DNA from: an uncultured Planctomycetota bacterium
GTDB lineage: Bacteria; Planctomycetota; Phycisphaerae; UBA1845; UTPLA1
Direction of reading: 5' to 3'
Length of the DNA stretch: 64,000 bases
Assembly (NCBI GenBank): GCA_900696465.1
Contig: CAADGE010000048.1
Coordinates: 62,001 to 126,000, forward strand
A program made the translations under genes and the position numbers. Under the pieces are notes generated by a model. It made no database searches and had not been told where the DNA came from. It saw nothing but the letters and a program-made list of their open reading frames with translations. Positions 51,716-56,745 of this stretch are shown here, in pieces (position 1 is the stretch's first letter; each line of letters starts with the position of its first letter).

Positions 51716-53305
51716 TCACAGGGCCTCAACTGCCGCCCCGCGCAGCAGTTCGATTGATACTGTTCGCCCGGTCCAGTGCCGAAGCTGTGCCTGCGCCTGA
51801 TAAAGAAAGAGTGTCAGGCCGTCGAGCACATGACAGCCGGCCGCGCGTGCGTCCCTGAGAAGACGGGTTTCCAGGGGTCGATAGACGGTATCGAAGACGA
51901 ATTGACCGGCTCGCAGTGCTTCCGCCGGCAGCGGGGAGACGGACGAATCCGGTGCGAGGCCGACGCTTGTGCAGTTCACGATGAGGTTGGCATCGAGTCG
52001 GGCGCGCTCCTCCCAGGGGCGGTGTTCGCAGCCGAAGGTCTGTGCCAGCACAATGGCCCGATCCGGCGTGCGGTTACATATCGTGACGTGCAACTGGATG
52101 TCGACCAGTGCGGCCACGACGGCTCGGGCAATGCCGCCGGCCCCCAGCACGAGGGCCTTCGCCGGGTGCGGTACGGACTCGAGTCCGGGTAGCGCCTCAC
52201 GCAGGCATAACCTTGCTGCCGGATAATCCGTGTTCGTGCCGAGGAGTTTGCCGTCCCTGCCAAGGCAAATCGTGTTGATCGCGCCGAGCCATTCGGCGTC
52301 CTTCTCGATGGCCCCGCCGGCTTCCCGAATGAATCGCAGGGCATTTTCCTTGTGCGGCAGCGTGACGGAGAAACCGCGGAAGTCGAGCCACGGCCGGGCG
52401 AGCACTTCAACCATGAATGCCTTGAAGGCCTCGTAGCTCGGCGTGACCGGCAGCGGCAGATACACGGCATTGAACTTCAGCTCATCGAAGGCCGTATTGT
52501 GCACGACGGGACTCAGCGAATGCCCGACCGGATAGCCGATGACGCCGTACACGGCGGTCTCGCGGTTGATCTTGTCCCAACGATAGCGGCGCTTCAGTTC
52601 GGCGGCTGGTATCTGACCGGGGGCTGTTTCCATGCCCAGGCGAAGGGCGGCGAACGTACCGAAGGCGTCAAACTTCCTGGCGAGGATGCGGGAGGCGAGC
52701 CCGTCGGTTCCCATGCAGATGACGATCGGTCGCTTCGGGCTGCTGTGGATCAGTTCAAGTGCCTCGAAATTGTCGCGGATCGATCGGGCCGGCCACGCCA
52801 GCTTGGGGACCATGCAGGCCGGTTCGTCGACCATTTCCAGCCAGTGACGATGAAGCGAAGTTGAGCGGGTTACAAGGTCGTGGCGTGAGAGAAGCAGCTT
52901 GCGCCGGGCGGCAAATTCGATGACTTCCTTGCCCTCCTCCTGGGAGATCTGGTCCGCTCGATGCAGTGCCAGTTCAATCTTCTGGCGGATGTTCGCGGAA
53001 CGCAGCCAAAGGGACAGTTCCACGTCGATGTAGTCAACGAATGGCCCCAGTTCGATCAGGCGACTGACACGCTCGTCATCGTCGCCATCCCAGGCGCCAC
53101 CCTCCGCCGCGGATCGGATCGTCAGGATGAATGGGATGGCCGCCGGCGTGCTGGTTCTAAGTGCGCGGAGGTCGTCGGGCGCGATTTCGCCCATCAGATC
53201 GACGCGCAGTTCGATGGCCTCCGCGCCGTCGGAGATGGCCTCGGCCACCTGGGCACGGAGTTCATCGGGGGTCTGTCCAGCCACGGGGACAATCAGCAGC
53301 GTCAT
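51716..53305 (-). CDS. aroDE: Bifunctional 3-dehydroquinate dehydratase (type I) / shikimate dehydrogenase
   Basis: A 529-residue fusion that carries out two consecutive steps of the shikimate pathway. The N-terminal type I dehydratase (1-225) shows AIELRVDL, the catalytic His in LLSRHDLVTRS and the Schiff-base Lys in MVPKLAWPA. The C-terminal NADP dehydrogenase (about 245-529) shows GYPVGHSLSPVVHN, VTLPHKENAL (catalytic Lys), GTNTDYPA (Asp) and the nucleotide site LGAGGIARAVVAAL. The same order is known in plants and in some planctomycetes and chlamydiae. aroK is nearby on the same strand. Confidence 0.93.
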   Translation of the reverse strand: MTLLIVPVAGQTPDELRAQVAEAISDGAEAIELRVDLMGEIAPDDLRALRTSTPAAIPFILTIRSAAEGGAWDGDDDERVSRLIELGPFVDYIDVELSLWLRSANIRQKIELALHRADQISQEEGKEVIEFAARRKLLLSRHDLVTRSTSLHRHWLEMVDEPACMVPKLAWPARSIRDNFEALELIHSSPKRPIVICMGTDGLASRILARKFDAFGTFAALRLGMETAPGQIPAAELKRRYRWDKINRETAVYGVIGYPVGHSLSPVVHNTAFDELKFNAVYLPLPVTPSYEAFKAFMVEVLARPWLDFRGFSVTLPHKENALRFIREAGGAIEKDAEWLGAINTICLGRDGKLLGTNTDYPAARLCLREALPGLESVPHPAKALVLGAGGIARAVVAALVDIQLHVTICNRTPDRAIVLAQTFGCEHRPWEERARLDANLIVNCTSVGLAPDSSVSPLPAEALRAGQFVFDTVYRPLETRLLRDARAAGCHVLDGLTLFLYQAQAQLRHWTGRTVSIELLRGAAVEAL

Positions 53306-53477: not shown

Positions 53478-54896
53478 ATGGACGTTCCTTACTACCCCAT
53501 CAATGACTACGAGCCGCTGATCAAGGGGCTGGTGATCGGCGGGCTGGGGATCACGCACGTCTTCCTCGCCCAGTTTGCCATCGGCGGCGGCATGCTCATG
53601 TGCTACTTTCAATGGCTGGCCCAGACCGGTCGTAGCCCGGTCGCACGGCAATTCCTCGACGGCTATTTCAAGATACTGGTGCTCATCAGCTTCGTGGTCG
53701 GGGCGCTGACCGGTGTGGCGATGTGGTTCACGACGATCCAGGTGAGCCCGCGGACGATCGGCGTGATGGTGGATGAGTTCCACTGGGTCTGGGCGACGGA
53801 GTGGACCTTCTTCTGCCTCGAAGTCGTCGCCGGCTACGCTTTTTACCGCTGCGGCAGGAATCTGCCTGATCGTTCACGGATGACACTGCTCCTGCTCTAC
53901 ACCGTCGGCGCGTGGTTCAGCTTGTTCTGGATCAACGGCATCCTCTCGTGGCAGCTGACACCGGGGCAATGGGGCGAAGACCGGTCGGTCTGGTCGGGCT
54001 TTTTCAATCCGAGTTTCTGGCCCTCGCTGATCTTCCGCACGATCACCTCGCTGACGATCGCCTCGCTGGCCGCGTGTGTCGTCATCAATACGATGACGGA
54101 GCTGCGTCGCGACTTGCGACGCGAACTCATCAACCGCGCGGCGTTCTGCCTTTCGCCCATGCTGCTCATGCCGGCGCTGGGCTACTGGTATCTGAATGTC
54201 ATACCGCCGGACAGCCGCTCCTGGGTCGAGGGCGGCAGCGCGGCCATGACCATGTTCATGGGGATCGCGGTGGCGGCGTCGCTGCTGATCGGCGGGTATG
54301 CCCTGGTCGGCCTGATTGCGCAGCGGCTGTACATCAACGGGGCGACGGCGACGCTGCTGTTGGCACTGGCCTTCGGGGCGACGGCCGGCGGAGAGTTCGT
54401 CCGCGAAGGCGTGCGGAAGCCGTTCACTGTGCGGGAGTATTTGTTCTCCAACTCGATCCGCGCGGATGAGGTGGCCCTGCTGCGCGAGCAGGGCAGCGTA
54501 ACGGCGGACCCGTTCCCCTTGCGCAACGCCGGTATCTACGCCAACGAACAATTACGACTGGGGGCGAAGGTCTATCGATTTCAGTGCAGCATCTGTCACT
54601 CGATGGGCGGGGTGAACGGCTTGACGCATCTGGCGGGCACATGGACGACCGATCAGAAGCGAATGAACATCGCCAAGCTTCAGAATACCAAGCCGTTCAT
54701 GCCGCCTTTTGCAGGCAATGCGGAAGAACTCGAGGCGCTTGTGCAACTGATCGAATGGCACGCCGCGGGGATGCCGCGAACGTGGGAGACCACGTCGAAT
54801 GCCACGGTGCTGGCGGAAATCCGGCAATGGCTCGATGAGGCGGGAACCGAGTCGGCTACCCGGCGTGAAGTTGCCCTGATCCGGGAGGAGCGATGA
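53478..54896 (+). CDS. Cytochrome bd-superfamily subunit I fused to a cytochrome c domain
   Basis: A 472-residue membrane protein from ATG 53478. Eight or nine helices (1-345) follow the CydA pattern: H27 in GITHVFLAQF is placed like the heme d ligand H19 of E. coli, ATEWTFFCLEVV gives the TM3 glutamates, FMGIAVAA gives a methionine like M393, and EFVREGVRKPF matches the EYGRQPW signature with its Glu ligand. The b558 His186 position appears to be Arg (LIFRTITS), and the quinol Q-loop is missing. A C-terminal cytochrome c domain (about 350-470) binds heme through CSICH. It may accept electrons from a c-type donor instead of quinol (inference). The next gene overlaps by four bases. Confidence 0.8.
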   Translation: MDVPYYPINDYEPLIKGLVIGGLGITHVFLAQFAIGGGMLMCYFQWLAQTGRSPVARQFLDGYFKILVLISFVVGALTGVAMWFTTIQVSPRTIGVMVDEFHWVWATEWTFFCLEVVAGYAFYRCGRNLPDRSRMTLLLLYTVGAWFSLFWINGILSWQLTPGQWGEDRSVWSGFFNPSFWPSLIFRTITSLTIASLAACVVINTMTELRRDLRRELINRAAFCLSPMLLMPALGYWYLNVIPPDSRSWVEGGSAAMTMFMGIAVAASLLIGGYALVGLIAQRLYINGATATLLLALAFGATAGGEFVREGVRKPFTVREYLFSNSIRADEVALLREQGSVTADPFPLRNAGIYANEQLRLGAKVYRFQCSICHSMGGVNGLTHLAGTWTTDQKRMNIAKLQNTKPFMPPFAGNAEELEALVQLIEWHAAGMPRTWETTSNATVLAEIRQWLDEAGTESATRREVALIREER

Positions 54897-55990
54897 TGGA
54901 TCGTACATTTCCATTCGGCTTTCCCGGGGCGACGGCGTTCTACCTGACGATCTACGTCCTCACGCTGGTGATCCACGTCTTGTTCATGAATTATGTGCTT
55001 GCCGGTACGGGTTACCTGTTGTTCTGTCGATGGCGTGATGGTTCTGGAAGCATTGCCGATCGGGGCCTGCGCGCCGGCGACGTGCTTCGCGACTGGATGC
55101 CGTTTGCTCTTAGCGGGGCCATCACGGCGGGCGTCGCGCCGCTCCTGTTCGTGCAGATTCTCTACAAGGAGAACTTCTACACAGCTAACCTGCTGCTGTA
55201 TCACCGCTGGATGGTCATCCTGCCGGTGCTCATCATCGGCTTCTACATGCTCTATCTGCTCAAGACGCAGTGGATCGAGCGGCGATCGGCACTGACCCGC
55301 GGCGTCGTCACGCTCGGCGCGCTGTTTTGCTTTGCCTTCACCGGGCTGTCCTGGACGGAGAATCACCTGCTCAGCACGGATACGGCGTCGTGGCCGGGCC
55401 TGTATGAGAGCGGCTCGATGGTCTATTACCACCGAGAGCTGTTGCCCCGGCTGGGCATGTGGGCGGTTGGATCGATTCCAACGATGGCCCTGCTGGTCGC
55501 GTGGCAGCTTTACGTGTTGCAGCGAAGCGGGCAGGAACCGAACGAACTTGAGCCGCGACGACTCGCACTGCTGGCAGTGGTAGGTATCGCGCTCAGTGTG
55601 GGCTGCGCCGGTTTATACGGTTATCAAATGACATCCGAAGTTCGCAGCCACGTCACCGGGGTGCTTGCGGGGCCTTTCCTGCTGGCCGGAGTGGTCGGGC
55701 TGGTGATACAGATCGTTGCCTGGCTGGATCAGGGCAAGAAGACACGTTTCTGCCCGCGCGCACTTGCGGCCGGATCAGCGGGGCTGCTGCTGACGATCAT
55801 TGGGATGACGACGGTGCGCGAGGCGATTCGCCTGGCATCGATTGATGTGACACCGCTGTATGTGCGACACGCGGAATCCGCGGAGAAGGGCGGGCTTTAC
55901 GTTTTCCTGGCATTCTTCGGGATCAATGCCGTGCTGGTAGCGTGGGCGATCCGCTTGACACGATCGCGCGTCGTGCACAGTGCGGATTAA
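54893..55990 (+). CDS. Multi-pass membrane partner of the bd-like subunit
   Basis: A 365-residue protein with about nine transmembrane helices (from about 20 to 345) and short loops. It has no heme c motif. Topology and position match a second subunit of a cytochrome bd-type complex, although little sequence similarity to CydB is evident by eye. Conserved-looking spots are WTENHLLS and YYHRELLPRLGMW. Two ATGs are possible: 54893 overlaps the upstream stop, while 54896 is better spaced (seven bases) from GGGAGG. Both genes are clearly one unit. Confidence 0.75.
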   Translation: MMDRTFPFGFPGATAFYLTIYVLTLVIHVLFMNYVLAGTGYLLFCRWRDGSGSIADRGLRAGDVLRDWMPFALSGAITAGVAPLLFVQILYKENFYTANLLLYHRWMVILPVLIIGFYMLYLLKTQWIERRSALTRGVVTLGALFCFAFTGLSWTENHLLSTDTASWPGLYESGSMVYYHRELLPRLGMWAVGSIPTMALLVAWQLYVLQRSGQEPNELEPRRLALLAVVGIALSVGCAGLYGYQMTSEVRSHVTGVLAGPFLLAGVVGLVIQIVAWLDQGKKTRFCPRALAAGSAGLLLTIIGMTTVREAIRLASIDVTPLYVRHAESAEKGGLYVFLAFFGINAVLVAWAIRLTRSRVVHSAD

Positions 55991-56034: not shown

Positions 56035-56745
56035 CTAGATGTGAATTCCAAGTGTGCGCAACTGCGCCGTCGCCAGCCGCGCCCAGTCTCGATTCGCCAC
56101 GGGACTCGCCGGGCTTGGGTGCAGAATGCGTCCGATGCGAACATCTGCGCCATCCAGGGCGACTTTCGCGCGGGCTTCGGCGAAGGCGCCAATGCCGACC
56201 ACGATGCTCGGCTGGAAGTAGTCGACGGTTCGACGGAGGGCTTTGTCGCACACGGCCAGCAGCGGCTCGCGCTGCCGGGGCGGGAGTTTATCAGGCGTGA
56301 TGTTTCTGCCACCGGCGTCGACAAAACACAACGGGCAGTAGTTGGCGATGAAGAACCGCCGGAAGAAGCGTTTCGGCGTCTGAAATCGATCGCGGGCCCA
56401 TCCCCAAAGCCGGCGACCGCTGACTTCGCTCCGCCGGCAATCGAAACCGAGGATCGGACGCTTCGGATGCTGTCGGGCCGGCGGGTTGACCGGCCCGGCG
56501 ACGTGTAGCCAGTCGCGTGCGAAGCTAACTTCACCGAAAGGAATGCCGGTCTGGGCCATGCCGAAGGGTCCGGGATTCATCCCGACGAAGAGCACATCGC
56601 GCAGTCCGCGGCCGTACAGACGGAGGTATTCCGCGTACGGCCTGCGGGCATAGACGAGTGGGTTATAGACACAGGCAACGGGGTGGGAGAACCGGAGCCG
56701 GGTCAATTCGCGGACCAGTTCGCGCGTGATCTTTTCGAGTGTCAT
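56035..56745 (-). CDS. SMUG1-like uracil-DNA glycosylase
   Basis: A 236-residue DNA-repair enzyme of the uracil-DNA glycosylase superfamily, SMUG1 branch. The uracil-binding motif is FVGMNPGPFGMAQTGIPFGEV (the Asn in GMNPGP activates water), and the second motif is ILHPSPASPVANRDW with the catalytic His. FIANYCPLCFV corresponds to the base-recognition strand. It removes uracil and oxidised pyrimidines from DNA in the cytoplasm. It is convergent with the oxidase pair 44 bases away. Confidence 0.88.
   Translation of the reverse strand: MTLEKITRELVRELTRLRFSHPVACVYNPLVYARRPYAEYLRLYGRGLRDVLFVGMNPGPFGMAQTGIPFGEVSFARDWLHVAGPVNPPARQHPKRPILGFDCRRSEVSGRRLWGWARDRFQTPKRFFRRFFIANYCPLCFVDAGGRNITPDKLPPRQREPLLAVCDKALRRTVDYFQPSIVVGIGAFAEARAKVALDGADVRIGRILHPSPASPVANRDWARLATAQLRTLGIHI

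Follow-up and report, generated by a model that had tools for sequence, protein, structure and literature searches.

Gene pair and domain structure

A cytochrome bd-superfamily gene pair was located on the + strand at positions 53478-55990 of the window, the 64,000-nucleotide stretch of DNA from an uncultured Planctomycetota bacterium that was analysed here. The pair was composed of two adjacent, overlapping open reading frames, each with a good ribosome-binding site ahead of its start, with an overlap of 4 or 1 base according to the start chosen for the second one. The extent of the pair and the coupling of its genes, as described in the initial annotation, were borne out by this overlap and by the ribosome-binding site at 54883-54890. 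The flanking genes ran in the opposite direction, and the pair stood alone between them. By eye, the upstream gene (51716-53305, - strand) resembled a fused AroD-AroE gene (3-dehydroquinate dehydratase and shikimate dehydrogenase), and the downstream gene (56035-56745, - strand) resembled a SMUG1-kind uracil-DNA glycosylase.

53478..54896, + strand: subunit I gene (ORF I), 472 aa, CydA-type membrane domain and C-terminal cytochrome c domain
53505..54458, + strand: membrane domain of subunit I (residues 10-327), eight transmembrane helices, AlphaFold model superposed on CydA
54540..54776, + strand: cytochrome c domain of subunit I (residues 355-433), predicted extracytoplasmic, PF13442 match and cytochrome c6 superposition
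54883..54890, + strand: ribosome-binding site of the subunit II gene, sequence GGGAGGAG, within the 3' end of the subunit I gene
54893..55990 (alternative start 54896), + strand: subunit II gene (ORF II), 364-365 aa, predicted CydA-type paralogue (CydA') without a cytochrome c domain

When subunit I was searched against Pfam and NCBIfam, the sole match was PF13442 (CBB3-type cytochrome c domain, E 2e-7), and a PF01654 (CydA) search of its own genome left the protein below the cut-off. Two relatives, 67-68% identical to subunit I, scored 53 and 55 bits, above that cut-off of 26.2; this branch often goes undetected in standard domain searches. Comparison of a subunit I profile (25 relatives) with a canonical CydA profile (22 sequences) by hhalign gave an E value of 1e-16 over TM1-TM5, and the match of the subunit I profile among the sequences of solved structures was the CydA of Geobacillus (E 8e-10). 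The AlphaFold model of subunit I (pLDDT 92.6) was superposed on ten CydA chains with Z scores of 30-33 over 310-316 residues (rmsd 2.5-3.3), and the next-best rows were chains of alternative complex III (Z 18). The core helices were clearly homologous to those of CydA, and on this sequence homology subunit I is a CydA homologue of the bd superfamily. The C-terminal domain superposed on cytochrome c6 with a Z score of about 6. Because the membrane domain had eight helices with basic loops in a positive-inside pattern, the C-terminus and the c domain were predicted to lie on the extracytoplasmic side, the site of cytochrome c formation.

Haem-site residues of subunit I

For E. coli CydA, whose numbering and residue roles are established, the active-site haem ligands are His19, Glu99, and Glu445, the proton residue Glu107, and the haem b558 ligands His186 and Met393. 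The corresponding features of subunit I were as follows.

53556..53558, + strand: codon of H27, equivalent of the active-site haem ligand His19, aligned to the CydA H20 column
53799..53822, + strand: E108 and E115 in TM3, equivalents of Glu99 and Glu107
54036..54038, + strand: codon of R187, invariant Arg at the haem b558 His186 position
54393..54422, + strand: E306-x-x-R309-E310-x-x-R313-K314-P315 at the end of TM8, from a global alignment of the C-terminal halves
54585..54599, + strand: CSICH haem c attachment motif (C370, C373, and H374), invariant in 67 relatives
54699-54701, + strand: M408, likely sixth ligand of the c haem

Residues H27, E108, E115, S148, R187, E306, E310, R313, C370, C373, H374, and M408 were invariant in 67 sequences. 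H27 and the TM3 glutamates aligned with haem-side residues of CydA, a placement taken from the alignment, as the model was haem-free. The two glutamates were 7 residues apart, compared with 8 in CydA, so that only one of them aligned ungapped and the match of E108 to Glu99 needed a one-residue gap. S148 was aligned with Ser140 of CydA. At the end of TM8, E310 and R313 matched Glu445 and Arg448, and the segment EFVREGVRKPF was aligned with the E445-x-G-R448-Q-P-W motif. The Trp441 position, four residues before Glu445, held the invariant E306, whereas it was an invariant Trp in the 22 canonical CydA sequences. The added c haem sits at the end of the helix bearing the Glu445 equivalent.

TM6 and TM7 were linked by 13 residues alone in the model, which indicates that the Q-loop is absent, and the replacement of the b558 His by Arg makes a b558 site unlikely. 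This residue pattern suggests that the two-haem O2 site and the proton path were kept, and that the quinol site was lost, as was the b558 relay. The initial annotation had already named the CSICH motif, H27, the TM3 glutamates, the Arg at the b558 His, the missing quinol loop, and EFVREGVRKPF in place of the CydA motif, all of which agreed with the alignment or the model. Its further CydA heme-site feature, a Met in the sixth-helix region, was present as M257 but did not hold as such a feature: M257 lay one turn off Met393 in a weak alignment, and was kept in the window's clade and the nearest sister clade but not in the next (third) clade. A role of M257 as a b558 haem ligand was therefore unsupported.

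Subunit II, clades and genome distribution

No domain was recognised in subunit II by Pfam or NCBIfam, and nine transmembrane helices were predicted. A subunit II profile (29 sequences) was matched to CydA with an E value of 9e-7 over about 200 columns and to subunit I with 3e-13 over 359 columns, compared with 0.03 (probability 1.6%) for CydB. When the AlphaFold model (pLDDT 92.2) was aligned with the bd structures, CydA was the best chain in 10 of 10 entries, with Z scores of 24-26. By Foldseek alone, CydA and CydB were not told apart, as the top row was a CydB chain (E 3e-3) level with chains of CydA, and a search of solved-structure sequences with the subunit II profile gave no credible match. 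A more distant subunit II had a weak PF01654 match (E 0.002). Two CydA-like elements were located in the sequence.

54974..54976, + strand: H27 of subunit II, at the His19 position in TM1, kept in 60 of 61 relatives
55817..55831, + strand: R308-E309-x-x-R312 of subunit II, at the end of TM8, matching R309-E310-x-x-R313 of subunit I

Residue E309 was found in all 61 relatives, and R308 and R312 in 60 of 61 each. The TM3 glutamates and the b558 ligands were missing from subunit II of the window's clade. Judged by profile comparison and predicted fold, subunit II is a second CydA-type subunit (CydA') and not a divergent CydB. The helical protein had been described as having little resemblance to CydB, which was correct because it is CydA-like; the description as a divergent second subunit was wrong in kind.

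Relatives were collected from two sources. Among 61 related genomes, 29 had a match, one of which (G031) was a canonical CydA, and a scan of species genomes gave at least 584 confirmed relatives, of which the best 80 were analysed. The relatives belonged mainly to Planctomycetota and also to Myxococcota (Polyangium, Kofleriaceae), in both of which the branch is widespread; isolated records carried the labels Verrucomicrobia, Tectomicrobia, and others. Close relatives in three loci (L130, L132, and L137) came from MAG contigs carrying the name of the anaerobe Candidatus Kuenenia stuttgartiensis, and these bins are likely mislabelled. In 77 of the 80 loci, the subunit I gene was followed by the subunit II gene in the same orientation, and the remaining three sequences ended too soon. 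Apart from the pair, no conserved neighbours were found, as no family occurred in more than 7 of the 80 neighbourhoods.

Three clades were seen. In clade A, which includes the window's pair, and in clade B, the c domain was on subunit I only; in clade B, the b558 His186 position of subunit II was occupied by a His, which was missing in clade A. In clade C, subunit II had both the His and its own c domain, and His mostly replaced E309. The window's clade has lost the b558-position His of subunit II. At the loci L017-L023, L024-L027, and L038-L041, this His was kept in subunit II of clades B and C while subunit I had Arg. Subunit II of clade C carried its own CxxCH motif, with two in locus L038. 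The trees of subunit I and subunit II mirrored each other, with the order (C,(B,A)) in both, which indicates that the pair was inherited together. A tree of subunit I, subunit II, and CydA consisted of three deep groups with no outside root and a long-branch warning; it was compatible with a duplication on either side of the split from CydA, and so gives no date for the duplication relative to that split.

When the distribution of the clade A pair was compared with that of canonical CydA in the 61 related genomes, the two co-occurred in none of the 17 genomes with the pair, and canonical CydA was present in 23 of the 44 others. The exclusion had a Fisher p value of 7e-5 and a within-family permutation p value of 0.005, in a sample where shared ancestry inflates the statistic and genomes may be incomplete. 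Eight genomes had neither a haem-copper oxidase nor a canonical bd; two of these carried clade A and four carried clade B. Of the four clade B genomes, three were 98-99% complete and contained a bc-kind cytochrome b. In G024, a clade A genome of this set, no PF00033 cytochrome b was found, which counts against the cytochrome c-linked reading proposed below. The exclusion, together with the genomes that have no other oxidase, suggests that an oxidase was replaced.

The window's own genome contained two haem-copper oxidases, one aa3-type gene set and one cbb3-like, as well as b-type cytochrome genes of the bc kind. A periplasmic cytochrome c pool is therefore expected, and the window's enzyme would be an additional oxidase. 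A search of this genome for alternative complex III gave no NrfD match.

Proposed enzyme, alternatives and known relatives

We read the pair as a cytochrome c-linked O2 reductase of the bd superfamily, predicted to be a heterodimer of two CydA-type proteins, with a probability of roughly 0.68. The core idea of the initial annotation, an OR-C-like bd-superfamily enzyme fed by a c-type carrier, was supported by the homology, the fold, the ligand conservation, and the genome distribution. An external periplasmic electron carrier would reduce the monohaem c domain of subunit I, from which electrons would pass to the E310 haem and then to the H27 haem of the same subunit, with neither a b558 relay nor a quinol site on the way. 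At the H27 haem, O2 would be reduced to water with cytoplasmic protons delivered by the E115/S148 path. Since the protons would come from the cytoplasm, energy is proposed to be conserved by charge separation without pumping. Subunit II would replace CydB, and one or two additional haems may be bound to it. If this reading is true, the respiratory chains of many Planctomycetota and Myxococcota, and their oxygen affinity, would be predicted differently.

A fuller version of this proposal is tentative and, taken as a whole, rather unlikely. It describes an O2 reductase of the bd superfamily without a low-spin b haem, in which the c haem feeds the active-site pair directly and a haem-binding CydA paralogue serves as subunit II, so that two pseudo-symmetric haem centres exist, one of them O2-reducing, and in which the enzyme replaced canonical bd in these lineages.

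Two other functions were considered, both improbable and to a similar degree. Electrons might flow in reverse, with a quinol or another membrane donor oxidised and cytochrome c reduced, as in alternative complex III. This kind of function has been suggested for the bd-like proteins found in nitrite oxidisers (PMC3578206), and both subunits superposed on the ActC, ActF, and PsrC chains with Z scores of 14-19. However, the Q-loop is missing, the residues of the O2-reducing two-haem site and the proton path in subunit I were all invariant, and subunit I was far closer to CydA (Z 30-33) than to ActC (Z 18). Alternatively, the electrons of cytochrome c might serve to reduce nitric oxide or peroxide, for detoxification and not for respiration. 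Canonical bd enzymes are reactive towards NO and peroxide, as established for E. coli bd-I, and the two haem-copper oxidases of the own genome also favour this function, but the neighbourhoods held no conserved stress or denitrification genes, and the exclusion with canonical CydA and the genomes without other oxidases point to oxidase replacement. Very improbable was a canonical A+B architecture with a divergent CydB as subunit II, which the common fold of CydA and CydB and the tied Foldseek row would allow, but against which stood the profile values, the preference for CydA chains in every bd entry, the TM1 His and the R-E-x-x-R of TM8, and the PF01654 match of the distant subunit II.

The c-linked O2 reductase was compared with the known groups of the superfamily. 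Murali, Gennis and Hemp reportedly defined the OR-C family in 2021 and named it for the C-terminal haem c motif in CydA. The window's subunit I is likewise a CydA without a quinol site and with such a motif (CxxCH, invariant in 67 relatives), and the pair fits, by these features, the published branch of OR-C or cydA-cytochrome c fusions. The OR-N family, by the definition assumed here, has no fused cytochrome c, and subunit I differs from it by the CSICH domain. The archaeal CydAA' of Caldivirga maquilingensis, according to a 2021 abstract, is said to oxidise quinol; it is also an enzyme of two CydA paralogues, but the window's pair lacks the quinol loop and has a c domain. Profiles, fold, trees, and pairing agreed in placing two CydA paralogues together at the window's locus, as in the CydAA' type. 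With canonical CydAB (qOR), subunit I has the active-site haem ligands, the proton-path residues, and the fold in common, whereas the Q-loop, the b558 ligands His186 and Met393 (the Met by weak alignment), Trp441, the ninth helix of subunit I, and CydB are absent from the pair, and a c domain is added.

The split between OR-C and OR-N is in literature use (PMC10839748, PMC11707229, PMC13189123), and OR-C is included in published profile sets (PMC11707229, PMC13189123). Chimaeras of cydA and cytochrome c without cydB were noted in deltaproteobacteria in 2015 and set aside as not proper bd oxidases (PMC5322542). They resemble the window's pair in the fusion and in the missing cydB partner, but are said to have several c-type cytochromes and have no described CydA' partner, compared with one c haem in subunit I. 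For the OR-N or bd-like oxidases of Nitrospira, Nitrospina, and Kuenenia, which also lack the quinol site, a cytochrome c donor and a CydAA' pairing were proposed (PMC3578206, PMC10839748); the described protein has 14 predicted helices, with three helices replacing the Q-loop, and no fused cytochrome c is described. The pair is thus not a new class, as the OR-C-like branch had already been noticed, and its description as an undescribed respiratory complex was too strong.

All characterised cytochrome bd enzymes in the literature found oxidise quinol, and experimental confirmation of the cytochrome c oxidase role in nitrite oxidisers is said to be lacking (PMC10839748). No biochemical test of this branch was found in the literature searched, which did not extend to the defining OR-C paper of 2021. 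The pair was found in the cultured strains Polyangium fumosum DSM 14668 and Limnoglobus roseus PX52, and because the two-gene set is compact and strictly paired, the question of a cytochrome c oxidase is directly testable.

In the structural alignments, both subunit models scored well above the level of unrelated helical proteins on NrfD-like chains, namely those from alternative complex III and polysulfide reductase. This is a hint that the bd and NrfD folds may be related at a deeper level.
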